Made by a program: the position numbers and the translations under genes. The notes beneath the pieces are model-generated. The model worked only from the letters and a program-made list of their open reading frames with translations, ran no database searches and was not told the origin of the DNA. A DNA stretch of 64,000 bases. Source: Planctomycetota bacterium. Lineage in GTDB: Bacteria > Planctomycetota > SZUA-567 > H5-PLA8. Location: positions 62,001-126,000 of the forward strand of contig JAOSKN010000003.1 of NCBI GenBank assembly GCA_027493525.1, in the 5' to 3' direction. This document shows, piece by piece, positions 43,862-64,000 of this stretch (positions within the stretch are counted from its first letter, which is position 1; every line of letters begins with the position of its first letter).

Positions 43862-45322
43862 ATGCCGTTTTTGCGCGCGCGTCATGCGCCTGGCCTATGC
43901 GTGCCGGCGCTATTGCTGGCCGGTTGCGCCTCGTACACGCCCAAGCCGCTGGCGCCGGAAGACGTGGTGGCGCGGGCCGCACTGACACGCGCGCAGCCGG
44001 ACGCCGAGGGGCCGGCGCCCGCCGGCCCGGTAACGTTCGTCCAGGCGGCGCGCTGGATGCTTGCCCACGGTCCGGAGGTTCGCGAGGCCGTCGCCGCGTA
44101 CGAGACGTCGCTGGCTCGCGCCGGGCGCAAGACCCCGCTGCCCAATCCGGGGTTGGAGATCGGCCCGCAATTCGGCTTCGGCCCGGACCAGGGCCCGGTC
44201 AACGCGTGGAGCCCCTTCGGCTCGATCGGCTTCACGATCCCGCTCGGCAAGCGCCTGCGCCGGCAGGACGAGCTGAACCGCGCGCTGGCCGATGTGGCGC
44301 GCGTGGAGGCGCTGGTCCGGCATCGCGAGATCTATCTGGAGCTGCGCGGGCGTTACAGCGAACTGGCGCTCGCGCGGCGCCGTGAGGCGGAGCGCGCCGA
44401 GATCGTCGCCTCAGCGCGCAAGGCCGCGCTGGCCGCGCGGAAGCTCGTCGAGGCCGGGCAGGCCACGGCGCTCGACGTGGCGCTCTTCGATCTGGATCTC
44501 ATGCAGGTCGAGGCCGAGTCGCTGGAAGCCCGCCGTGAGACCGCGCGGGCCGGGGCCGGACTGGCCCGCGCCGTTGGGGTCCGCGCGGATCTGTTTGCCG
44601 CCTTGCCCGCCGGCGCGTTGCCGGTCCTGCCTGCATCGATTCCCGGCGAGGAGGAGTTGAAGACGCAGCTCGTCGCCCACCATCCGGAGCTGGCGCGGCT
44701 CCGCGCGCGCTACGAGGCCGCCGAACGCGAACTGCGTCTGGAGATCGCGCGGCAGTGGCCCGACTTCACCTTCGGCCCATCCTTCGACAGCGAGAGCGGC
44801 GAGAAGCGCACGGTCGTCGGCCTGACGCTGGGCCTCGAGATCCCGTTCTTCGACCGCAACGAGCAGGGCATCGCGGAGGCCGAACGCCGGCGCGAGGAGG
44901 TCCGCGTGCGGTACGAGGCCGCGGCCAATCGCGCGCTGGCCGGTCTGGAGGCCGCGCGCGCGGACCTGGAGCTCGCGCGTTCGATGGCCGCGCTGGTGCG
45001 CGACACGATGGCGCCGCGCGCGGCGCGGAATATCGAACTGGCACAGCGCGCGGTCGAGGCCGGCGCCGGCGACGTATTGAAGCTGCTCGACGCCGAACGC
45101 AGTCACCGCGCCGTGCGCCTTCGGGCGCTGGAGGCGGACCTGGCCGAGCGCGCGGCCTGGGTCGCATTGGAGTCGGCGGTGGGGCAGCCGCTGCTGCGCT
45201 TCCCCGGGGAAGAAGCGGACGTCGAGGCGCCGCCCGGACTGGGCGGCGCGGAGAGCGCTCAGGACGGGGCCGACGAGGATGAGATGCCTTACCTGAACGA
45301 TGGAGAGGAGCCTGGCGAATGA
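43862..45322 (+). CDS. TolC-family outer-membrane efflux lipoprotein (CusC/CzcC-like)
   Basis: A 486-residue protein with a lipobox LAGC (lipidated C22) and two repeats of the outer-membrane efflux protein domain: helices around ELRGRYSELALARRREAE and RLRARYEAAERELRLEIAR, and the beta-barrel strand pairs ending IGFTIPLGKR and VGLTLGLEIPFFDRNEQG. Length matches CusC/CzcC. It forms the outer-membrane channel of a tripartite heavy-metal pump with the adaptor and RND genes that follow. The next gene's ATG overlaps its stop (ATGA). The acidic C-terminal tail is extra. Confidence 0.93.
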   Translation: MPFLRARHAPGLCVPALLLAGCASYTPKPLAPEDVVARAALTRAQPDAEGPAPAGPVTFVQAARWMLAHGPEVREAVAAYETSLARAGRKTPLPNPGLEIGPQFGFGPDQGPVNAWSPFGSIGFTIPLGKRLRRQDELNRALADVARVEALVRHREIYLELRGRYSELALARRREAERAEIVASARKAALAARKLVEAGQATALDVALFDLDLMQVEAESLEARRETARAGAGLARAVGVRADLFAALPAGALPVLPASIPGEEELKTQLVAHHPELARLRARYEAAERELRLEIARQWPDFTFGPSFDSESGEKRTVVGLTLGLEIPFFDRNEQGIAEAERRREEVRVRYEAAANRALAGLEAARADLELARSMAALVRDTMAPRAARNIELAQRAVEAGAGDVLKLLDAERSHRAVRLRALEADLAERAAWVALESAVGQPLLRFPGEEADVEAPPGLGGAESAQDGADEDEMPYLNDGEEPGE

Positions 45323-46986
45323 AGCAGGCGGCATGGACGTTGATCCTCGCGGCGGCCTTTGCCGCGATAGGTCTCGCCGGCGGCTGGATCGCCGCGCGTC
45401 AGACCCAGAGCGCCGGAGGCCACGGCGGGCACGAGGCGGGCGAAGGCGGGGACGAGCACGGCCACGGCGGGCACGCGCCCGCCGTGCCGGTTTTGTCGGA
45501 GCAAGCGCGGCTGAACCTGGGGCTCAAAGTGGCCGAGGCGGACACGGAGGATTATTGGAAGCGGCAGCCTGTGCAGGCCGTTGTCGCCGATTCGCCGCGC
45601 AGCCTCCAGCCCATCTTCGCGCCCATCGGCGGGCGCGTGACGGAGCTGAACGCGCTGCCGGGCGCGGTCGTGCCCGCCGGCGGCGTCGTGGTCACGCTGA
45701 TCCGCGAGCCGCTGCCCAGGCCGAAGCTGATTCTCACCGATCCGATCCTCAAGCCGGCGAACGAGGACTTCCATGGCGCGGTGGGCGAGATGCGCCGGGC
45801 CGCGCGCGGACTCGAACTGCTTAACGCCGAGCTTGAGCGCGTGCAGAAGTTCGTGGAAACGGGCACGCAGGACGGCCTGCCGATCCTGCCGCGCAAGAAC
45901 GTCATCGACCTGCGTTACGAGATCGCGCGCGGCGAGATGGAGGTTCAGAACGCCGAGCAGGAGTTGCGCCGGCACGGCGTCACTGACGCGCAGCTCGCCG
46001 AACTCGCCAAGGGCCGGGCCGCCGCGGTGCTCGGGCAGCAGGTTTGGCGCCAGGCGTTGCAGCAGAACGGGCTTTGGCCGGCCGCCGCCGAAGCGCTGTA
46101 TGCGGCGCTCCCCGCCGAGGCCCAGGCGCTGCCGTGGAGCGTCGCGGCCGTGGGCGAACTGGCCGCCGCGGGGATTCCGCTCGCCGACCTGACCGTATGG
46201 CTCAAGGCCGAACCCGCGGCCGCGGCGCATTTTATCGAGATCGCCGGACTGCTGCAGGAGGGCCACGCGCTCACCGCGGTCAAAGCGCTGCACGCCGTGG
46301 GGGGGCTGGAGGAGGTCGTCCGAATCTCCGCGCCGGCCCCGGACGGCGTCCCCGACTGGGACGTGCTGGCGCTCGACGCGAAACCCGGGCAGCAGGTTGA
46401 ACGCGGGCAGGTCCTCGGGACGCTGGCCAATCCGCGGGAACTCCAGTTGCGCGCGGAGCCCGTGGGGGGCGAGGTCGCGGCGGTCCTGGCGGCGGCCTCT
46501 CAGGGCGGAGAGATCGAAGCCGTGCCGCTGCTGAAGGATACCGGCCCGCACCTTAAGGGCTTGAAGCTGGCGTACGTCACGAGCGACCCCGACGGGCATG
46601 GAACGCTGGCGGTCCTGGGCGTCCCGAACGAAGCGCTGGAAACCCAGGCCGGCACGAAGCCCGAAGGGCGCACATGGCGCCTGCGCCCGGGCCTGCGTTA
46701 CACGCTACGGGTGCCCGTGGAGAAGTTCGGAGAGGCCTTCGTGCTGCCCAGCGATGCCGTGACGGACGACGGCCCCGACAAGGTGGTCTTCATCGAGGAC
46801 GGCGGCGGCTTTAAGCCTGCGAAGGTGGTCGTGCTGCACCGGGATCACGAGACCGTCGTGCTGGACTCCCGGTTTTCGGAACTCTTTCCCGGCGACCGGG
46901 TCGTGACGCGCGGCGCCTTCGGCCTGGGTGTGGCGCTCAAGGCCGGCTCGGGTGGCATCGATCCGCACGCGGGCCACAACCATTGA
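45319..46986 (+). CDS. RND efflux membrane fusion protein (CusB/CzcB-like)
   Basis: A 555-residue periplasmic adaptor. An N-terminal helix (WTLILAAAFAAIGLAGGWIAA) is followed by a His/Gly-rich stretch (GGHGGHEAGEGGDEHGHGGH), typical of metal-type adaptors, and the sequence ends DPHAGHNH. The barrel-sandwich halves are FAPIGGRVTELNALPGAVV and WDVLALDAKPGQQVERGQVLG. Between them lies an unusually long, partly helical insertion (about 160-290). The beta-barrel region includes LPSDAVTDDGPDKVVFIED. It joins the RND pump to the outer-membrane channel. The two His-rich ends fit Zn, Co, Ni or Cu/Ag export; the metal cannot be read from this. Confidence 0.93.
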   Translation: MKQAAWTLILAAAFAAIGLAGGWIAARQTQSAGGHGGHEAGEGGDEHGHGGHAPAVPVLSEQARLNLGLKVAEADTEDYWKRQPVQAVVADSPRSLQPIFAPIGGRVTELNALPGAVVPAGGVVVTLIREPLPRPKLILTDPILKPANEDFHGAVGEMRRAARGLELLNAELERVQKFVETGTQDGLPILPRKNVIDLRYEIARGEMEVQNAEQELRRHGVTDAQLAELAKGRAAAVLGQQVWRQALQQNGLWPAAAEALYAALPAEAQALPWSVAAVGELAAAGIPLADLTVWLKAEPAAAAHFIEIAGLLQEGHALTAVKALHAVGGLEEVVRISAPAPDGVPDWDVLALDAKPGQQVERGQVLGTLANPRELQLRAEPVGGEVAAVLAAASQGGEIEAVPLLKDTGPHLKGLKLAYVTSDPDGHGTLAVLGVPNEALETQAGTKPEGRTWRLRPGLRYTLRVPVEKFGEAFVLPSDAVTDDGPDKVVFIEDGGGFKPAKVVVLHRDHETVVLDSRFSELFPGDRVVTRGAFGLGVALKAGSGGIDPHAGHNH

Positions 46987-47020
46987 GCGTTCGCCCGCCG
47001 AAGCTTGGAGCTACGACCAT

Positions 47021-47048
47021 GCGGAATTCGGACTGCGGAATGCGGAAT
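47021..47048 (+). repeat. Heptad array (GCGGAAT)4
   Basis: Four 7-bp units, GCGGAAT, TCGGACT, GCGGAAT, GCGGAAT, in the 193-bp gap between the adaptor gene and the pump gene. Confidence 0.78.
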
Positions 47049-47179
47049 GAAGGGCAAGCGCGGAGGGTTCCGCCGCACGCGGGGCCGCGCATGCCGAGCT
47101 TTCCCATCCAGGATCAGCCCGGCGCTCCGATCTTGCGCCGCCGCGCCTTCGGCGGTTGGGCCATGCGAGGGGCTTCGCC

Positions 47180-50100
47180 GTGCTGAATCGGATCATCGCC
47201 TTCGCGCTGCGTAACCGGCTTTTCGTGGTCATGGCCGCGCTGCTGGTGGCCGGGTACGGATCCTACACGGCGCTGCGCATGCCCATCGACGTGCTGCCGG
47301 ACCTGAACCGCCCGACGGTGACGATCATGGCCGAGGCGCACGCGATGGTGCCGGAGGACGTCGAGCGGCTGGTCACGATCCCCATCGAGCAGATGGTCAA
47401 CGGCGCGACGGGGGTCACGCGCGTCCGCTCGTCGTCGGGTCTGGGGCTAAGCGTGGTGCAGGTTGAGTTCGGCTGGGAAACGGAGATCTTCCGCAACCGG
47501 CAGATCGTGCAGGAAAAGCTGCAACTCGCGCGCGCCAAGCTGCCCCCGAGGTGGACGTCAAGATGGCGCCCATCTCCAGCATCATGGGGCAGGTGCAACT
47601 CGTCGGATTCCAGAGCAGGACCGGGTCGACGGGGGTTTCCGAGATCCGCGCGCTGGTGGACCAGTACGCCAAGCCGCGGCTGCTTTCGATCCCCGGGGTC
47701 GCGCAGATCGTCTCGATCGGCGGCGCGCCGCGACAGATGCAGATCACGGTGGACGCGGATAAGTTGCGCGCGTTCGAGGTGACGCTGGACGAGGTCGCGG
47801 AGGCCGTCCGGAAGGCGAACCTGAACGCCTCGGGCGGGTTCCTGAACCTGGGCGCCAAGGGCCCCGTGATCACGGTCACTGGGCGGATCGAACTGGAAGC
47901 GCAGATGGAGCAGGCGGTGGTGAAACCGGACGAACGCCGGCCCGTGCGCATCGCCGACGTGGCGCGCGTGGAATTCGGCCCGGCGGCGATCCGCACGGGC
48001 GACGCAGGCGTGAACGCGCGCCCCGGGGTCATTTCGGTCGTCTTCAAGCAGCCCGGCGTGGATACCGTGGCGTTGACGGAACGGGTCAATTCGGAGCTGA
48101 AAGACCTGGCCACGGCCTTCCCCGAAGACGTCACCATCGTGGACGACGTGTTCCAGCAGGCCGATTTCATCCATCGCGCGGTGGACAATGTGGCCGACGC
48201 AGTGCGCGACGGGGCGGTCCTGGTGGTGTTCGTGCTCTTCGTCTTCCTGCTCAACTTCCGCACGACCTTCATCACGCTCACCGCGATCCCGCTTTCGGTG
48301 GCGATCACCGCGATCGTGTTTTCGCTGCTGGGGCTCTCGATCAACACGATGACGCTGGGCGGGCTGGCGGTGGCGATCGGCGCGCTGGTTGACGACGCCA
48401 TCGTGGACGTCGAGAACGTCTTCCGCCGGCTGCGGCAAAACGGCGGCGCGCGGCCGTCCCTCCAGGTGATTTTCAAAGCCTCCAGCGAGGTGCGGAACCC
48501 GATCCTCATCGGCACGCTGCTGGTCGTGGTGGTGTACCTTCCGCTCTTTTACCTTACGGGCCTTGAAGGCCGGCTGTTCACGCCCATCGGAATCGCCTAC
48601 ATCGTCAGCACGCTCGCCTCGCTGGCCGTCTCGCTCACCGTCACGCCCGTGCTCTGCTACTACCTTTTGGGGGAATTTCAGCGCCGCGCATCGCGAGGAC
48701 GGCTGGCTGGTCCGCAAGCTCAAGCTTGCCGCCGGCGCGTCGATCCGCTTCGGGATGAACCATCCCTTGCCGATCCTGGGGCTGCTGCTGGCGACGGTGA
48801 TGAGCGGCGTGTTCGTGCTGGCCACGCGCGGCTCGGAGTTCCTGCCCGAGTTCAATGAAGGCTCGTACCAGGCGAACCTGATCCTGCCGCCCGATACCGG
48901 GCTGGAAACGTCCGACGCCTACGGCAAGCGCCTTGAGGCGGTCATCGCTTCCGTGAAAGGCGTGAAGCACGTCGGCCGGCGCACGGGCCGGGCCGAGGGC
49001 GACGAACACACCGAAGGCGTCAACACCACCGAGACGATCTTCACCGTGGATGCCGCGGCCGGGCGCGCGCGGAACGAGATCCGCGACGAGGTCCAGGAAC
49101 GGCTCGAAGACGAATTCCCCGGCGCGGCGGTCGCGGTGGAGCAGCCGCTCGCGCACCTGCTCAGCCATCTCCTCTCCGGCGTCAACGCGCAAGTCGCGAT
49201 CAAGATTTACGGCCCCGAACTCGACGTGCTGCGCAAGACGTCCGCGGAAATCGAAGCGGCGATCCGGCCGATCCCCGGCGTCAGCGGGCTCTATACGCAA
49301 CCGCAGGTGCTCGTGGATCAGGTGGCGGTCGAGCCGAAGCGCGAGGTTCTGGCGGCGCTGGGCCTCAGCGTCCATGAACTGGCGGAGACGATCGAACTGG
49401 GCGGGGGCGGCGAGGAACTGTCCCGGATCAACGTCGGGCAGGTCAGCTACCCGATTGTCGTGCGCCTGGAAGAAAAGGACCGCCGCAGCCTGGAAAGCCT
49501 TCGCGGGCTGCCGCTGCGCGCAACGGACGGGCGCACGGTGCTGCTCTCCGACGCCGCCGCGGTGAACCTGGTCAAGACCCCGAATAACATCAACCGCGAG
49601 AACGTCATGCGCAGGGCGGTCGTGCAGCATAACGTCGCAGGCCGTTCGCTGGGGGAGGTGGTGGCCGACGTGGAGCGCGCCCTGGAACCGATCCGCGCGA
49701 AACTCGCCGCGCAGCCCGGATACTCGATCCGGCTGAGCGGGCAGTTCGAGGCGCAGGCCGAGGCGGAGAAGCTCCTGATCGCGCTCAGCTTCGTTTCCCT
49801 GGCCGCGATGTTCCTGATCCTGTACATGCATTTCCGTTCGGTGAACCTGAGCCTTCAGGTCCTCGCGAGCATTCCCATGGCCTTCGTCGGCGCCGCCGCG
49901 TACATCGTCGCCAGCGGGCAGACGATGTCCGTGGCTACGCTCGTCGGGCTGATCTCGCTCGGCGGCATCGCGGCGCGCAACGCGATCCTGCTGCTGGACC
50001 ACTACCTGCATCTGATGCGCGAGGAAGGCGAAGCCTTCACGCGGGAGATGATCGTGCGCGCCGGGCAGGAGCGGATGGTGCCGGTGCTGATGACGGCGCT

Positions 50101-50398
50101 CTGCAGCGGCATCGCCCTCGTGCCCCTGGCACTTGCGCCGGGCGAGCCGGGCCGCGAACTGCTTTACCCGGTGGCCACGGTAATCATCGGGGGCCTGCTC
50201 TCCTCGACGCTGCTCGACTTCCTGGTCACGCCGGGCCTGTTCTGGACCTTCGGGCGGCGAGACGCCGAACGCCTTGCCGCCGAGCCGCGGCATGCCGACG
50301 ACGCGGCCGAAGCCCTGGCGCGCGACTTATGCGCAAACGAGACGGCTTCAAACCACGGTGCGGGAACCCCCGCGAAAGGAGAATGGGCGCATGGATAG
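47180..50398 (+). CDS. Heavy-metal RND efflux pump (CusA/CzcA-like), two apparent frameshifts
   Basis: Starts at GTG with [17 protein letters not shown], the standard CzcA beginning, after GAGGGG. Three frames join at C5 47543-47547 and at T4G5 48665-48673 to give about 1072 residues, a normal pump length. Conserved signatures are [45 protein letters not shown] (helix IV acidic residues), the porter domains, and [20 protein letters not shown] and [15 protein letters not shown] in the second half. It is a proton-driven trimeric pump in the inner membrane. The breaks sit at homopolymers and each side continues in register, so read errors are likely. Confidence 0.88.
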
Positions 50399-50850
50399 GC
50401 GAATCGGCGGTTGCGCGCTGGCGTTGCTGGCGGCTTTTTGTCTTGGAACGCTCCGCGCGGAGGATCACGGCCACGATCACGGCAAGGAAGCAAAAGGCCC
50501 GCATGGCGGCGCGGTCCTGGAAGTCGGGGGATCCCGGCGACACCCACGCCGAACTCGTCCACGACCATGCCGGTGGGAAACTCACTCTCTACCTGCTCGC
50601 CAAGGACATGAAGAGCCCCGTCGCGATCAAGGAGGCTCCCAAGCTGAATCTGAAGGCCAAGGACGGGAACAAACAGCTCGAGATGAAGGCGGTGGAGCCG
50701 AAGGACGAAAAGGCATCTCAGTTCGTCGCCGAGGACGAGAGCCTCAAGGCCGATCCGCTCGCCGGCCGAATCTCCATCACCCTCGACGACGGCAAGAAGT
50801 ACAACGTGAAGCTGGAAGATCACGGCCACGGTCACGGCCACGATCACTGA
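50391..50850 (+). CDS. Histidine-rich periplasmic protein of the efflux operon (one apparent frameshift)
   Basis: It starts with [20 protein letters not shown] (signal peptide) after AAAGGAG, overlapping the pump gene by 8 bp. The mature part opens AEDHGHDHGKEAKGPHGGAV. After VLEVG the frame breaks in the G5 run 50526-50530; the other frame resumes DPGDTHAELVHDHAGGKLTL and runs to a final HGHGHGHDH. The joined product is about 153 residues. His clusters at both ends suggest periplasmic metal binding or buffering for the pump. A hairpin terminator follows 17 bp after the stop. Confidence 0.78.
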
Positions 50851-53477: not shown

Positions 53478-54011
53478 ATGAGCGAGCACGAGGTTCCCGG
53501 ACAAGGAGCGCGCGGCGAAGAAGGCGCTCCGCTGCCGCGGCGCGATTTTCTCACCCACGCGCTGATGGCCGGCGGGCTCTGCGCGGGCTACGGCGCGTTT
53601 GCCTCCATCGCCGCGCAGTACCTGTATCCTTCACATGCTGTGCGCAAGGGTTGGATGTTCGTCGCGGTCCTTGAGGACTTCCCCGTCGGCGCGGCGCTGG
53701 ACTACAAGACGCCGACCGGCGCCAGCGTCACCATCGCGCGGCAGAGGAGCGGCGGCGGCGTGGACGATTTCGTCGCGCTCAGCAGCGTCTGCCCGCACCT
53801 GGGGTGCCAAGTGCACTGGGAACCGCAGAACGAACGCTTCTTCTGTCCCTGCCACAACGGGGTCTTCAACCCCGCGGGAGAAGGCGTTTCGGGGCCGCCG
53901 GCCGGGCAGCGCCTGCCGAGCTACCCGCTGAAGATCGAGAATGGCCTGCTCTTCATCGAAACGCCGCTGGAGGGGCTGGCGCGCGCCTCCGGCGGCTTGG
54001 GGGAGGCCTGA
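53478..54011 (+). CDS. qcrA: Rieske [2Fe-2S] protein of a cytochrome bc-type complex
   Basis: A 177-residue protein with a twin-arginine type anchor (PRRDFLTHALMAGG, Arg21-Arg22, then a hydrophobic helix) and the cluster-binding boxes C105-P-H107-L-G-C110 and C123-P-C125-H126-N-G. It transfers electrons from quinol bound at cytochrome b to the next carrier on the outer face of the membrane. It heads an operon: cytochrome b starts 1 bp after its stop, then an octaheme cytochrome and a porin. No separate cytochrome c1 or f gene is present. Confidence 0.96.
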   Translation: MSEHEVPGQGARGEEGAPLPRRDFLTHALMAGGLCAGYGAFASIAAQYLYPSHAVRKGWMFVAVLEDFPVGAALDYKTPTGASVTIARQRSGGGVDDFVALSSVCPHLGCQVHWEPQNERFFCPCHNGVFNPAGEGVSGPPAGQRLPSYPLKIENGLLFIETPLEGLARASGGLGEA

Positions 54012-54012
54012 G

Positions 54013-55062
54013 ATGCCCGGTCCCGTCGCGTGGCTGCGCGAGCGCCTGCCGGTCTCCGGCGCGCGCCTGCAAGAGCTTACGAACGAGCCGGTCCCGAACC
54101 ATCTGCGGCGCTGGTGGTTCTGCCTGGGCGGCACGCCGGCGTACCTGTTCGTGGTGATGATCGTCACCGGCATCCTGCTGGCGCTCTATTACGAGTCCTC
54201 GCCCGCGCGAGCCTACGAATCCGTCCGGCACATCACGGAAGAAGTGGCCTTCGGCTGGTACCTGCGCAGCCTGCATAAGTGGGCCGCGACGCTGATGATC
54301 GCCTCGGTGATCCTCCACCAGATGCGGGTCTTCTTCACGGGCGCATACCGCAAGCCGCGCGAATTGAACTGGTTCGTCGGGATGAGCCTGCTTCTTTGCA
54401 CGCTGATGACCGGATTCACCGGGTACAGCCTGGTCTACGAGCAACTCAGCTTCTGGGGCGCGACGGTCGGCGCGAACATCGCCGAGACGGTGCCGGTCGT
54501 GGGACTCCATCTCAAGCGGCTGCTGCTGGCCGGGGACGCCTACAACACGCAGACGCTCCCGCGCTTTTTCGTGATCCACGCCGCGGTATTGCCCGCGACG
54601 ATCATCGGCTTGCTGGCGCTGCATGTCGCGATCCTGCGCCTGCAGGGAATCTCCGAACTGGAGTTCGAAGACGAGCCGGAAGGCCGGCCCAAGACCTACG
54701 ACTTTTTCCCCGATCACTTCTATACCGAGCTGATTATCGGCCTGGTCCTGATGGTCCTGCTCAGCGCGCTGGCGACGGTGCTGCCGGCCGAACTGGGGCC
54801 CAAGGCCGACCCGCTGGTCACGCCCGAGGTGATCAAGCCGGAGTGGTTCTTCTACGTCACGTTCCGGTGGCTCAAGCTCTTTCCCGGCGTCGCGGCGGTG
54901 CTCAGCATGGGCTTCATCCTGTTCGTGATGTTCGTCTGGCCGCTGATCGACGCCGCGGTCCGCCGCCGCAGGCCCGATTCGGAGTTCAGCGTCTGGGTCG
55001 GCATCGCCGCCGTGATCCTGATCGTCGGGCTGACGGTTTGGGAGGGGGTCGTGGCGCACTGA
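54013..55062 (+). CDS. qcrB: Cytochrome b of a bc-type complex (full length)
   Basis: A 349-residue integral membrane protein joining both cytochrome b halves. The heme ligands are H88/H102 and H189/H204; the second pair is 15 apart, as in cytochrome b6 rather than mitochondrial-type cytochrome b (14). The quinol-site motif is PEWFF (276-280), in place of PEWY. About eight helices end near residue 345. It oxidises quinol or, in reverse, reduces quinone together with the Rieske protein. The N-terminal 30 residues are soluble. Spacing to the octaheme gene is 34 bp with GGAG 8 bp before its ATG. Confidence 0.95.
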   Translation: MPGPVAWLRERLPVSGARLQELTNEPVPNHLRRWWFCLGGTPAYLFVVMIVTGILLALYYESSPARAYESVRHITEEVAFGWYLRSLHKWAATLMIASVILHQMRVFFTGAYRKPRELNWFVGMSLLLCTLMTGFTGYSLVYEQLSFWGATVGANIAETVPVVGLHLKRLLLAGDAYNTQTLPRFFVIHAAVLPATIIGLLALHVAILRLQGISELEFEDEPEGRPKTYDFFPDHFYTELIIGLVLMVLLSALATVLPAELGPKADPLVTPEVIKPEWFFYVTFRWLKLFPGVAAVLSMGFILFVMFVWPLIDAAVRRRRPDSEFSVWVGIAAVILIVGLTVWEGVVAH

Positions 55063-55096
55063 AGGTCTTGTGCGTCGGTCGTTTGGGAGCGAGCGA

Positions 55097-56749
55097 ATGG
55101 AACTTAGAACCAAGCGCAGCGTCATCGGGATTCTGGGCATCCTGTTCCTGATCTCGCTGATCTTCGTCCAATGGATGGAGGTCGTGCGGAAGCAGGAGGA
55201 GTCCGGGCGGCGCGAGGCGCCCGTGGCCGTGCCGGCCACGAGCCAGGCCTGCGTGGACTGCCACCGCAACGCGCAGCCTGGAATCGTGGCGCATTGGGAG
55301 GGCAGCACGCACGCGCGAAAGGGGATCGGCTGCGCCGACTGCCACAAGGCCGAGGAAGGGGACGCCGACGGTTTCGCGCACTATGGCGCGCACATCGCCA
55401 CGATTGTCACGCCGCGCGACTGCGGGAAATGCCACCAAAAGGAAGCCGAGCAGTTCGCGAGCAGCCATCATTCCAAGGCCGGCAACATCCTTGCATCGCT
55501 GGACAACTTCCTCGCCGAAACCGTGGAAGGTTCGCGTGTGCCGTTCGATCCTCACGGAGCGACGCCCGGCATGAGCGTGGTCAAGGTCCACGGCATGGCC
55601 AGCGCCGAGAGCGGCTGCCAGCAGTGCCATGGCAGCAAGGTCGCGCTCCTGGGCGCCGACGGAAATCGCATCGGCATGGACGAGCTGAAGCCCGATGAGC
55701 ACGGCCGCCCTACGGACCTTAACGCGGTCGCGCGCATTTCTCGGAGCGAGGACGGAAAGCCGCTCTTTCATGCCGGCACGTGGCCCAACACGGGAATCGG
55801 ACGGATTAACCTCGACGGCAGCCGCGGGTCGTGCAGCGCTTGCCACAGCCGTCACGACTTCTCCCCGCGCCGCGCGCGCCAGCCGGAGAACTGCGCCAAG
55901 TGCCACCTCGGCCCCGACCACCCGCAGAAGGAGATCTACGACGAGTCCAAGCACGGCGTCGCGTACCGGGACCTGAAGGAGCGCATGAACCTCGACGCCG
56001 AGGCCTGGGTGCTCGGGCGCGATTACACCGCCGCGCCGACCTGCGCCACCTGCCACATGTCCGCCAACACGCGCGATCCCGTCACCCACGATCCGGGCGA
56101 GCGGATCAGTTGGACCAACCGTCCGCCCATCAGCGTGAAGATGGACACCGACGCCGAGCACCGCATCGTGACGGAAGCCGATCCCGAGAAGCGCCGCGCG
56201 CAGATCGCCGATACCTCCGAGCAGAAGCGCACGCGCATGAAGAACGTCTGCGGGCACTGCCACGCGCCCGAATACGTCAACGGGTTCTACAAGCAGTACG
56301 ACGCGCTGGTGGTGCTCTACAACGAGAAATTCGCCCGCCCGGGCCAGCGGCTCATGGCTGTGCTGCTCGAGCAGGGCCTGCGCACGAAGACGGAGTTCGA
56401 CGAAGAGGTCGAGTGGACCTGGTTTTATCTCTGGCACCACGAGGGCCGGCGCGCGCGGCATGGCGCGTCGATGATGGCGCCGGACTATACACATTGGCAT
56501 GGTATGTTTGAGGTCGCCGAGCGGTTCTACATGGAACTGATCCCGCAGGCCCGCGAAATCGCCGCGCACGCCATCGCCCACGGCCGGGAAGCCCAAGGCA
56601 AGGCCGTCTACGCGGCGATCGACGAGATCCTGGCCCGGCCGGAGCACAAATGGTTCAAGGAAGGCGCCGAAGGTCAGACCGAGGCCATCCGGAAGGCGAT
56701 GCAGGAACGGTATGGGCAGGGCTCGTCCGGCGGCGCAAAGGAGCCGTGA
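55097..56749 (+). CDS. Membrane-anchored octaheme cytochrome c, hydroxylamine-oxidoreductase (HAO) type
   Basis: A 550-residue protein. The N-terminal helix (about 8-26) has no clear cleavage site, so it is probably a membrane anchor. Eight CxxCH motifs follow, with first Cys at 52, 79, 109, 174, 246, 266, 316 and 385. The spacing, the segment EYVNGFYKQYDALVVLYNEKF after the last motif, and DYTHWHG (Y464-H468) near the C-terminus fit the HAO family of octaheme cytochromes. In HAO a C-terminal Tyr crosslinks to the active heme P460; whether Y464 is that residue needs an alignment. The likely role is hydroxylamine or hydrazine oxidation, or nitrite reduction, linked to the adjacent Rieske/cytochrome b. 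A porin follows with the start overlapping the stop. Confidence 0.93.
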   Translation: MELRTKRSVIGILGILFLISLIFVQWMEVVRKQEESGRREAPVAVPATSQACVDCHRNAQPGIVAHWEGSTHARKGIGCADCHKAEEGDADGFAHYGAHIATIVTPRDCGKCHQKEAEQFASSHHSKAGNILASLDNFLAETVEGSRVPFDPHGATPGMSVVKVHGMASAESGCQQCHGSKVALLGADGNRIGMDELKPDEHGRPTDLNAVARISRSEDGKPLFHAGTWPNTGIGRINLDGSRGSCSACHSRHDFSPRRARQPENCAKCHLGPDHPQKEIYDESKHGVAYRDLKERMNLDAEAWVLGRDYTAAPTCATCHMSANTRDPVTHDPGERISWTNRPPISVKMDTDAEHRIVTEADPEKRRAQIADTSEQKRTRMKNVCGHCHAPEYVNGFYKQYDALVVLYNEKFARPGQRLMAVLLEQGLRTKTEFDEEVEWTWFYLWHHEGRRARHGASMMAPDYTHWHGMFEVAERFYMELIPQAREIAAHAIAHGREAQGKAVYAAIDEILARPEHKWFKEGAEGQTEAIRKAMQERYGQGSSGGAKEP

Positions 56750-58239
56750 TGCCCATGACTGGCGTTGCGAATCGCGTATTGGAGCGTCCTGAATTGGCGA
56801 AGATTCCATTTCTCGCGGCATGGCTGCTCGCCGCTTGCGCGCTCTGCGCGGGGGAGGGCGCGTACGCGCCGGGGCCACAGGAGGCCAAGGCCGAGGCGCG
56901 GAAAGCACTGGAGGCTCCGGCGCCCGCGGCCGAAGGCGCCGTGCCCCTTCCCGAACTCACGCAAGCCCTTGAAGTCGTCAAGAACATCCCCGTCGGGCCA
57001 GTCAAAGTCAGCTTTGGATTGGATCACCGCACCCGCGTGGAGGTCTGGGACCATCGTTTCCTGCCCGGCGGGAATCTGTATACCAACGGCGTGACGTTCA
57101 TGCGTAACCGGTTCTGGATGGACTGGGAGCTCCACGAACACCTGCGGCTCTTCGCGATGGGGCAGGACGCGCGCAAAGATGGCGACGTCCGCGCGCAGCG
57201 GCGCTTCTGGGAGGACAAACCCGACCTGCTCGAAGGCTTTCTCGATCTGCGCAAGCTCTTCGGCGCAGACCTTACCGTACGTCTCGGGCGGCAGCCGCTC
57301 AAGTACGGCAACGAACGGCTTGTCGGAACGTTCGAATGGTCCAACCCGGGCCGGCGCTTCGACGGCGTCCGCGTTTTCTGGAAGAGCAGGAACGGAGACT
57401 GGAGCGCCGACGGATTCGCGACGAAGGTCGTCGCGATCGACCCCGAGGGCTTCAACGAGTCCGAGCCGACCGAGGAATTCTACGGCCTCTATGCCGGATA
57501 CCACGGCATCGAGCGGCACCACTTCGAGGGTTACGCCTTCGCGCGCCTCAACGAGAACGATAAGATTCCCGACGAACTGCACAATCCCGGCGCGGGCGTC
57601 TCCAGCCTGGGCGACCTGCGCGTCTTCACCCACGGCTTCCACTTGTACGGTGGGAAGTTCTGGAATGCGCTCGACTACGACGTCGAGGGCGCGTTTCAAT
57701 GGGGCGGCGTGGGGCGGGGGAACCTGCGGGCCGGCGCGCTGCACGCCGAACTGGCCTGGACCTTCGCGCCGAGTTGGAAGCCGCGCCTCTCCGCCGAATA
57801 CAACTACGGGAGCGGGGACGGCGATCCCGACGACGGCGACAGCGGGACGTTTAACAATCTGTTTCCGACCAATCATCTCCATTACGGTTACAGCGACTAC
57901 GTCAACTGGTCCAATACCCACAACATCGGCCTAGGCTTCTCCGCTTCGCCGTACGCGGGAATCACCGTCTGGGCCAAGGCGTGGCAGTTCTGGCTGGCCG
58001 AACGCGAAGACGCCTGGCGCAACGCGGCGGGAGGCGTATTGGGGCGGGATCGAAGCGGAAATTCGGGTAATCGCGTGGGACAGGAGTACGACCTGGGCGT
58101 GAGCGCGAAGATAAACCGCCATATTTCGGCGCAAATAGGTTTCAGTATTTTCGAAGGGGGCCGATTCGTGCAGGAAACGCGCGACGGGCAACAGGAAATG
58201 AGCCGCTTCCTCTGGGCGCAAGCCGAGCTGAAGTTCTGA
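56749..58239 (+). CDS. Outer-membrane porin, alginate-export (AlgE-like) type
   Basis: A 496-residue protein. A signal peptide (FLAAWLLAACALCAGEGAY) is followed by an acidic linker and a beta-barrel domain with alternating strands: RVEVWDHRF, NRFWMDWELHEHLRLFA, VRLGRQPLKYGNERLVG, and TFNNLFPTNHLHYGYSDYVN, a region typical of the alginate_exp family. It ends in an aromatic residue (Phe), as outer-membrane barrels do. The start lies in TGATG, overlapping the octaheme gene, with AAAGGAG 6 bp upstream. Its place in the operon suggests it admits or exports a small charged solute for the cytochrome complex, which is inference. Confidence 0.9.
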   Translation: MPMTGVANRVLERPELAKIPFLAAWLLAACALCAGEGAYAPGPQEAKAEARKALEAPAPAAEGAVPLPELTQALEVVKNIPVGPVKVSFGLDHRTRVEVWDHRFLPGGNLYTNGVTFMRNRFWMDWELHEHLRLFAMGQDARKDGDVRAQRRFWEDKPDLLEGFLDLRKLFGADLTVRLGRQPLKYGNERLVGTFEWSNPGRRFDGVRVFWKSRNGDWSADGFATKVVAIDPEGFNESEPTEEFYGLYAGYHGIERHHFEGYAFARLNENDKIPDELHNPGAGVSSLGDLRVFTHGFHLYGGKFWNALDYDVEGAFQWGGVGRGNLRAGALHAELAWTFAPSWKPRLSAEYNYGSGDGDPDDGDSGTFNNLFPTNHLHYGYSDYVNWSNTHNIGLGFSASPYAGITVWAKAWQFWLAEREDAWRNAAGGVLGRDRSGNSGNRVGQEYDLGVSAKINRHISAQIGFSIFEGGRFVQETRDGQQEMSRFLWAQAELKF

Positions 58240-61811: not shown

Positions 61812-61889
61812 GGTGGCTGTAGCTCAATTGGTTAGAGCGCCAGACTGTGGCTCTGGAGGTTGGCGGTTCAAGTCCGCTCAGCCACCCCA
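61812..61889 (+). tRNA. trnH: tRNA-His (anticodon GTG)
   Basis: The cloverleaf is clear: acceptor GTGGCTG/CAGCCAC, anticodon stem CCAGA/TCTGG with loop CTGTGGC (anticodon GTG), T-arm GGCGG-TTCAAGT-CCGCT and an encoded CCA. G-1 (61812), the identity element of tRNA-His, faces C73 (61886). Its 3' half overlaps the end of the serine recombinase reading frame on the other strand, which suggests a tRNA-associated integration site. Confidence 0.97.
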
Positions 61890-63034
61890 TACCCTGAAAT
61901 TGCCGTTTTCGCGACTTCGTCGAACGGGCAACGCCAGGTCAGTCTTAAACTTACCTCGTCCAATTCCCGGTTCGTGCAGAGAATTTCGAGCAGCTCCCGC
62001 CTGACCGAGTTGCACGAACCGAGCCAGGTTTCCGCCGCTTTCTGCGTCAGGTCGAAGATCGCCGTCGCCATGTCCGCGAACTCGGCGTTGACCTTGGTCT
62101 CCGAGGCCATTTCTTCCTGAACGCGCGCCAACTCGGCCTTGAGGCCCTCATTCTTCTCCTGGAATGTCTCCTGCTCGACGTCACCGGCGAGATACGTGTC
62201 GAGGAGCTTGGCTTTCTTGTTGAATAGCTCGGATTCTCTCTTCTGAAGGACGCGCCGGATCTTCTTCCGGTAGGTCTCCTCGTCGGACAGCGAGGCGCGC
62301 AGGGCCTCCCGGAACCAGGCCGTGACCTCGGGGGGGAGCCTGAGGCCGTTGAGCTGATCGACGATGGCCTGCTTCAGGTCGCTCGCCCGCCAGCGGACCT
62401 TCGGATGGCTCGGCGGCATGTCGTGGTTCGAGCACCGGTAGTACACGTGATTCTTGAAGGTTCCGTCACTCTGTCGCTTTTTAATCTCCTCGCCGGTAAT
62501 CGCGTATCCGCAGTACCGGCAGCGGAACAGGCCGCCGGAGAGTGGGAGGTTGACCTGCCTGATTCTCCGGTTTCGACCTGAGAGCAGGTCCTTGCAGACC
62601 TCGAAGGTCCCGCGGTCAATGAGCGGCTTGTGCTTGCCGGGGAACCGTCGTCCGTGCCAGTTGATGTCGCCGGCGTAGAAGGGGTTGTTCAGGATGTAGG
62701 ACACGGTCTTCCAGCGGAACCGCGGATTGGCAGGCTGGTAGACGTACCCCTCCTCGGCGAGCTTTTCCCCGACGCCATCGAGGGTCAAGTCGCCCAGGGA
62801 GAACAACTGGAACATCCGGACCACGGCGGGGCTGTGCTCGGGATGGACCTTGATGGGTTCCGCAGGATCGTCCGGATCGTTCACGTAGCCATAGGGCGCA
62901 TGGGTGGGAAGCCAGCCTTGCTGGACCTTCTCGTTGAGGCCCTTGAGGGTCTCCTCGCGGAGGTTGTCGGAGTAGAACTGCGCGACGGAGGCGGGGGTAT
63001 TGTCAAAAGTTGTGGATGGCGAGAGGAGAATCAT
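61868..63034 (-). pseudogene. Large serine recombinase lacking its catalytic domain
   Basis: The frame begins inside the IS end; real recombinase sequence starts about PASVAQFYSDNLREETLKG and holds the Recombinase domain (GWLPTHAPYGYVNDPDDP, RWKTVSYILNNPFYAGDINW), a zinc-ribbon (CRYCG, then YYRCSNHDMPPSHP) and a C-terminal coiled coil (QKRESELFNKKAKLLDTYL). The N-terminal catalytic domain with its serine nucleophile is missing, replaced by the IS256-type element, so the protein is inactive. Its last codons lie in the 3' half of tRNA-His, so the C-terminus was probably set by the integration event. Confidence 0.85.
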
Positions 63035-64000
63035 GCGGCGTTTTCCTTGATGCCGTCCACGAAACGGATGCCTCGAATCACGTCTTCCAGCAGCTTATGG
63101 CCGTTTAGTTTCCGCCAGCGCTTCTCGGCAACCTGAGCGAGTTTGAACACCATCGCCAGCGTGGCTTGGCGCGTGCCGCAGCCTTTGGTCTTGTGCGTCC
63201 GCAAGCGCACCGTGGCGAAGGCGGACTCGATCGGGTTCGTCGTTCTCAGATGCGCCCAATGCTCGGCGGGGAAATCGTAAAACGCCAACAGCGCGTCTTG
63301 GTCCTTGAGCAGACACTCGACCGCCTTGGGATGCTTGGCTTGGTACGTCGCCACGAACGCATCGAACGCTGCCTGCGCATCCTTGCGCGTCTGGGCCATC
63401 CAGATCTGATGCAATTTCTCCTTGGCTGAAGGCTGTAATTTCTTGGGCAGGCCGTTCAGCACATGCATCGTCTTGTGAACCCAGCAACGCTGCACCCGGC
63501 ACTTGGCAAAGGCTTTCGGAAGCGCCGCCCAGAAGCCCAACGCACCGTCGCCGATGGCCAGGTCCGGGCCGTTCTTCAAGCCGCGCGCTTTCAGGTCCGT
63601 CAAGACCTCAAGCCAGGACTGTTCGCTCTCCCGCACGCCGTCATGCACGGCGACCAGTTCCTTCTTGCCGTCGGCCGTGGCCCCCATGACCACCAGGATG
63701 CACGAGCGGTCTTCCTCCAGGCGGACGTTGAAGTAGATGCCGTCCACCCACAGATACACGTAGCGCTTGCCCGCCAAGGACCGCCGGTTCCAGCTCGCGT
63801 ACTCGGAGGCCCAGACGTCCTTGATCCGCGTGATCGTATTGGCCGAAAGCCCCTTGGCTTGCGGCCCCAACAGCGCGCTCAGCGCCTCCGGAAAGTCCTG
63901 CGTGGAGATGCCCTTCAAATAGAGCCACGGGATCAGGTCTTCCATGCTCTTGGTCCGGCGCAAATAGGGCGGCAGAATCTTGCTCGTAAAGGGCTCTCGC
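62990..64000 (-). mobile_element. IS256-family insertion sequence (partial)
   Basis: The IS contains the transposase below and runs beyond the right edge. Its near end is judged from the motif ATCCACAACTTTTGACAATA with a few C residues after it, read on the minus strand at about 62995-63022, which resembles the terminal repeats of this family. The other end and the target duplication are outside the window. Confidence 0.7.
63031..64000 (-). CDS. IS256-family transposase (5' end cut by window edge)
   Basis: Reads REPFTSKILPPYLRRTKS at the edge, then GISTQDFPEALSALLG, the first catalytic Asp in VWVDGIYFNVR, the second in IGDGALGFW, the RCWVHK motif typical of the Mutator/IS256 group, and the catalytic Glu in TTNPIESAFATVRLR. 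It moves the IS by a copy-out type mechanism. About 323 residues are seen of a usual 390-410, and no frameshift is found. Its stop overlaps the start of the residual recombinase frame by 4 bp. Confidence 0.95.
   Translation of the reverse strand, partial: REPFTSKILPPYLRRTKSMEDLIPWLYLKGISTQDFPEALSALLGPQAKGLSANTITRIKDVWASEYASWNRRSLAGKRYVYLWVDGIYFNVRLEEDRSCILVVMGATADGKKELVAVHDGVRESEQSWLEVLTDLKARGLKNGPDLAIGDGALGFWAALPKAFAKCRVQRCWVHKTMHVLNGLPKKLQPSAKEKLHQIWMAQTRKDAQAAFDAFVATYQAKHPKAVECLLKDQDALLAFYDFPAEHWAHLRTTNPIESAFATVRLRTHKTKGCGTRQATLAMVFKLAQVAEKRWRKLNGHKLLEDVIRGIRFVDGIKENAA

Follow-up and report, generated by a model that had tools for sequence, protein, structure and literature searches.

In the 64,000-nucleotide stretch of Planctomycetota DNA analysed here (hereafter the window), genes for a Rieske protein, a cytochrome b and an octaheme cytochrome c follow one another (Table 1). 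The best explanation for this set is a quinol:nitrite oxidoreductase, in which a nitrite-reducing octaheme would stand in place of cytochrome c1 in a Rieske/cytochrome b complex; the probability of this reading is roughly 0.6. How would such a complex work? (Mena)quinol would be oxidised by cytochrome b and the Rieske protein at the Qo site, on the outside of the cytoplasmic membrane, and its two electrons would be split in the usual way. The high-potential electron would go from the Rieske head to the hemes of the octaheme, which would be anchored in the membrane through its N-terminal helix and substitute for cytochrome c1 or f. A five-coordinate heme of the octaheme, expected to be heme 4 and to lack the Tyr link, would then reduce periplasmic nitrite to NO or ammonium. 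The nitrite would be supplied by a neighbouring NapA in many relatives, and here from outside or by other nitrate reduction. Complex formation, the electron path, nitrite as the substrate and proton translocation are the parts of this scheme that we infer; the genes present, the conserved unit, the ligands of hemes and cluster, the catalytic Asp-His pair, the lack of the cross-linking Tyr and the NapA/NapB-like neighbours of relatives can be read from the sequences.

Is the arrangement only a chance neighbourhood? A scan of named genomes gave at least 572 relatives, and the best 80 of these were retained as named loci. The Rieske and cytochrome b genes are directly upstream of the octaheme, in the same order, in 62 of the 69 loci that have enough upstream sequence. 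Because so many loci keep this order, the Rieske-cytochrome b-octaheme set is a real unit beyond chance. Records with the intact unit are titled Planctomycetota, Gemmatimonadota, Acidobacteriota, Krumholzibacteriota and Myxococcota (Deltaproteobacteria), that is at least five phyla, plus some doubtful bins. An octaheme relative at E 1e-20 or better is present in 87 of 294 Planctomycetota genomes, all octaheme groups counted. In the window, the gaps between the four same-strand genes at 53478-58239 (Rieske, cytochrome b, octaheme and porin) are 1, 34 and -1 bp, and the cluster has no cytochrome c1 or f gene, the octaheme being the one cytochrome after cytochrome b. Coordinates and Pfam matches therefore agree with a preliminary description of this DNA, which reported four packed genes without c1 or f and regarded the octaheme as the obvious third subunit, a view that the conserved unit supports.

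The membership of the porin, which was described there as the fourth gene of the set, does not stand. In G056, which belongs to the same genus, the three genes occur without a porin, and of the best 80 loci among at least 572, L087 is the only one to carry a porin where the window has it. The porin was thus rejected as a subunit; it is cotranscribed by position, yet it is not conserved with the unit. No solved relative of it was found by sequence. Its place does bring in another explanation, a porin-cytochrome route for extracellular electron transfer, by which quinol electrons would pass through Rieske/b, octaheme and porin to an extracellular acceptor such as a metal. The porin gene overlaps the octaheme gene here and comes after it in L087, and the cytochrome b matches ExtP of the Geobacter Ext operon with 222 bits. 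However, the ExtP cut-off is 290, most relatives lack the porin, and the protein belongs to the Alginate_exp barrels and not to the MtrB-type conduits. We consider this route very improbable.

The octaheme of the unit also has a membrane anchor. In the window it is a hydrophobic N-terminal helix at residues 3-35, one helix in the AlphaFold model, and together with the eight CxxCH motifs it bears out the earlier description of a membrane-anchored octaheme. Among the relatives, the anchored form goes with Rieske/cytochrome b, while those without these partners (Anaeromyxobacter and an NrfD-linked group) start like signal peptides. A crude signal-peptide test based on the AxA motif could not tell anchored octahemes from secreted ones and was given up. 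In two Anaeromyxobacter isolates (L142, L147) the octaheme is 61-67% identical to that of the window, has a cleavable-looking signal peptide and has no Rieske/b genes adjacent.

What would the octaheme reduce? Of the 70 named loci that have enough sequence downstream, 17 carry NapA directly after the octaheme, within a few hundred bases; NapA also follows the octaheme in 7 Planctomycetota genome stretches. A tetraheme cytochrome usually comes after NapA; the one examined is a NapB match above cut-off, and the one NapA examined is above both curated NapA cut-offs. In a sister octaheme group, the octahemes carry signal peptides instead of anchors and are located between DsrO/DsrP-like subunits and NapA, and the DsrP-like protein of the sister-group operon scores above the DsrP cut-off. 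As this group keeps octaheme and NapA with a DsrO/DsrP-like module, the quinol module has been exchanged and the pairing of octaheme with NapA has stayed, and this is the strongest pointer to nitrite reduction. In a comparison of 294 genomes with kinship ignored, the window's group and the sister group together co-occur significantly with NapA (24/60 against 28/234, p 4e-6) and also with qNOR (p 0.0015). The gene order tetraheme, DsrO-like, DsrP-like, octaheme, NapA and NapB-like was observed at L215 3259-4707 with its neighbours and at L216 6351-13906.

The same neighbours might be explained in another way. The octaheme could be a mere electron-transfer subunit with no chemistry of its own, which would take up the Rieske electrons and relay them to NapA, oxidases or soluble cytochromes. 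A NapA and a NapB-like cytochrome downstream in those 17 loci would suit such a role, as would Campylobacter, whose Nap can draw its electrons from a Rieske/b (Qcr) complex. But NapA is not beside the unit in most loci, the genome has other quinol:cytochrome c systems, and the octaheme keeps the catalytic Asp-His pair of HAO. This explanation is unlikely, although it is the most credible of the alternatives. Several points also weigh against nitrite reduction by the window's own unit. The window's group alone gives only marginal co-occurrence in the 294 genomes, again with kinship ignored (p 0.047 for NapA, p 0.039 for qNOR). There is no NapA beside the window octaheme and no NapA-type nitrate reductase was found in its genome, and its nitrite source is therefore uncertain. 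The genome is 88% complete, hence absences from it are provisional.

The catalytic residues give evidence for the direction of the reaction. D267-H268 of Nitrosomonas HAO are aligned to Asp274-His275 of the window octaheme, a pair that is invariant in 44 sequences. Where HAO has its cross-linking Tyr (Y467), the window protein has Trp467 in this alignment of distant sequences. The column holds Tyr in HOX-/HDH-like proteins, Phe in IhOCC-like proteins, and Trp in HAOr-like proteins (Kuenenia) and the window clade. A missing cross-link Tyr is a published mark of reductive octahemes. Two reductive traits are thus present, namely the absence of this Tyr and relatives that adjoin nitrate reduction genes. 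As for the product, Kuenenia HAOr yields NO, and eHao of Caldithrix abyssi was proposed to yield ammonium (PMC5317091). Could the enzyme instead be oxidative, with hydroxylamine or hydrazine oxidation feeding the quinone pool? Membership of the octaheme superfamily and the kept Asp-His pair would allow this, but it was already disfavoured by the absent Tyr, by a position outside HAO/HDH at full support and by the NapA neighbours, which suggest reduction. Moreover, hydrazine synthase was not found in the 88% complete genome, while a Kuenenia-like control was positive, in agreement with the earlier remark that no anammox core genes are in view. An oxidative role is the least probable of the explanations weighed here. 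Among the substrates first suggested, nitrite stays as the likely one; hydroxylamine and hydrazine oxidation are not supported. A further alternative is a reductase for another substrate (hydroxylamine, NO or sulfur oxyanions) serving mainly detoxification. Octahemes are known to act on a broad range of substrates, and Rrf2-type regulator genes are close to the unit in a few loci; yet the NapA neighbours would be left unexplained, and a Rieske/b donor suggests respiration. We find this decidedly unlikely.

To which octahemes does the protein belong? The preliminary description saw the CxxCH spacing of the HAO family, but the window spacing is 27-30-65-72-20-50-69 against 29-19-44-11-20-47-45 in one anammox HAO/HOX-type protein, so that they agree in just two steps, the one of 20 residues and the next one of about 50. 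The best solved sequence match is Ignicoccus 4qo5 (6e-43; 151 bits, 209 with a profile), followed by the Kuenenia reducing HAO-like 6h5l and then HAO, HOX and HDH. Foldseek also gives 4qo5 and 6h5l as top matches of the AlphaFold model, with TM-scores near 0.3; the model (pLDDT 74.5) was built without hemes, and no residue geometry was used from it. The Ignicoccus hospitalis protein is thus the best match by sequence and by Foldseek, yet it is archaeal, only about 24% identical and, unlike the window octaheme, has no known Rieske/b partner. In a tree of 55 octahemes, the window clade including all Rieske/b-linked members is supported at 100/99, and the anammox HAO/HOX-, HDH- and HAOr-like proteins are set apart from it behind a 100/100 branch. 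Support is low (89/60) for the branch that unites IhOCC-like rows and the larger clade of the window, the order of deeper groups is unsure, and the tree contains long branches. The tree thus places the octaheme in the HAO superfamily but apart from HAO, from HDH and from the HAO-like proteins of anammox bacteria. To the question raised at the outset, whether it would fall outside the HAO-like families, the answer is divided: it is outside HAO, HDH and HAOr and inside the wider octaheme superfamily.

There is a further question of concern, how the unit relates to the anammox complexes to which it was first compared. In anammox Rieske/b complex 3 (Kuste4569-4574), an HAO-like octaheme is proposed for nitrite reduction and comigrates as one complex (PMC12954380, PMC12485887). 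The window unit is similar in that a Rieske/b complex is paired with an octaheme proposed to reduce nitrite. L165, from the Kuenenia-like genome G088, agrees with Kuste4569-4574 in having Rieske, NAD(P) oxidoreductase, cytochrome b, subunit IV-like, hexaheme and octaheme genes. However, the split b6-type cytochrome b with subunit IV, the hexaheme and the NAD(P) oxidoreductase belong to complex 3 only, and its octaheme has a C-terminal anchor and lies on the HAOr branch, while that of the window has an N-terminal anchor and lies on another branch. The analogy therefore holds for the architecture and fails for the octaheme branch and the parts of the complex. Placing the Kuste4574-like octaheme of L165 in the window clade was rejected (p-AU 1.35e-5, 194 lnL units worse). 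Therefore Rieske/b modules and octahemes were joined at least twice, unless the octaheme was replaced while the association stayed. Two look-alikes can thus be set apart, the anammox Rieske/b octaheme complex and the window type, with different octaheme branches joined to a Rieske/b module. Within anammox-family genomes, the proteins nearest to the window octaheme (L067, L068, L069) are about 50% identical to it, of secreted type and without Rieske/b neighbours.

The closest precedent is Caldithrix abyssi, in which genes for Rieske (Cabys_2558), cytochrome b (Cabys_2557) and octaheme eHao (Cabys_2556) adjoin Nap without a cytochrome c1, and the quinol-oxidising Rieske/b complex was proposed to feed the octaheme nitrite reductase directly or via NapM (PMC5317091). 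The same three genes are in the same order in the window, a likeness of gene order and proposed role; the Nap genes are adjacent in Caldithrix and absent beside the window unit. Cable bacteria have a periplasmic multiheme nitrite-reductase candidate beside nap, and their respiratory scheme also shows Rieske and CytB (PMC10030654). They resemble the window by description, a multiheme nitrite-reductase candidate with Rieske/CytB. With these precedents and the Qcr-driven Nap of Campylobacter, the window is a new case of a kind already proposed for Caldithrix abyssi. Relative to the published descriptions compared, the spread across phyla, the tie of the anchor to Rieske/b linkage and the evidence for a non-anammox type are new. 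A broader scenario, which we hold tentatively and as somewhat less probable than its contrary, is that the three-gene set represents a widespread and coherent Rieske/b class in which a membrane-anchored octaheme nitrite reductase replaces c1, coupling nitrite respiration directly to the Q cycle, with an origin separate from the anammox complex. There would then be nitrite reducers among many Planctomycetota, Acidobacteriota and Gemmatimonadota scored as NirK/NirS/NrfA-negative. If this holds, a common operon without an assigned role gives nitrite respiration to organisms counted as non-reducers by surveys of these markers, and this respiration would be energy-conserving, since electrons pass through the Rieske/b complex.

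The two electron-carrying partners have bc1/b6f-type features, namely the Rieske cluster motifs and the four His ligands of cytochrome b. The Rieske protein has a twin-arginine-like start (RRDFL) and a single N-terminal anchor, and its cluster motifs, CPHLGC and CPCHNG, are both conserved in relatives; among solved structures, AioB and b6f Rieske proteins are nearest to it. In bc1, a Ser and a Tyr in the Rieske motif raise the potential. The window protein has Gly and Phe at these positions (CPCHNGVF), as have nearly all relatives, and a Rieske protein without Ser and Tyr there would be predicted to have a low midpoint potential and would fit menaquinol as the donor. The first half of cytochrome b is closest to b6, and the C-terminal domain was also matched. 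Its four His heme ligands have pair spacings of 14 and 15, as in the b6f type, and PEWF is found at the Qo site. A Cys stands at the b6f heme c_n position; it was dropped as a defining trait because many relatives have Ala.

What else does this genome use for respiration? Family matches and reading gave an aa3-type oxidase, a cbb3-type oxidase with an ACIII cluster and, close to heme A synthase, another b6-type cytochrome b. Because the ACIII/cbb3, aa3 and b6-type complexes are separate, the unit is not needed for oxygen respiration. The preliminary description had proposed looking through the assembly for nitrite reductases and cytochrome c oxidases; the oxidases are there, and neither NirK nor NirS was found in the 88% complete genome. 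The only NrfA match, 26.6 bits over 66 positions, is where L199 encodes the ACIII pentaheme and was not counted. The window octaheme is the single HAO-like octaheme of the genome. Two qNOR-like proteins are encoded in this genome without NirK/NirS (G000:C3:1149762-1152059 and C3:1336658-1338856); an Rrf2-like regulator gene, judged by reading, is beside one of them. A nitrate reductase-like protein is nearest to formate dehydrogenase/NasC-type models, below their cut-offs, and is not NapA. At G000:C2:485885-491005 (L213 5886-11003) there is a 1706-codon open frame in which the final 730 residues form a molybdopterin oxidoreductase, either a fusion or a frame artefact; the same-genus genome has two separate frames there.

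Table 1. Genes of the Rieske/cytochrome b/octaheme cluster and the adjoining porin, in window positions
Feature	Position	Strand	Remarks
Rieske [2Fe-2S] protein, 177 amino acids	53478..54011	+	ATG 53478, stop 54011; Pfam Rieske 39.5 bits
One-piece cytochrome b, 349 amino acids	54013..55062	+	ATG 54013, stop 55062; Pfam Cytochrome_B N- and C-terminal parts
Octaheme cytochrome c, 550 amino acids, 8 CxxCH, proposed nitrite reductase	55097..56749	+	ATG 55097, stop 56749; Pfam Multi-haem_cyto 74 bits
Outer-membrane porin, 496 amino acids	56749..58239	+	ATG 56749; Pfam Alginate_exp 228 bits; 1 bp overlap with octaheme gene

Elsewhere in the window, at 61871-63963 on the minus strand, a recombinase-like open reading frame with Recombinase and zinc-ribbon domains, in which no catalytic N-terminal domain was detected, directly adjoins a Mutator-family transposase that lacks the first ~100 profile positions. 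A heavy-metal type RND efflux set, with outer-membrane factor, HlyD-like adaptor and inner-membrane pump, is at 43862-50850, and after it comes a small His-rich protein with HGHGHGHDH as its last residues.

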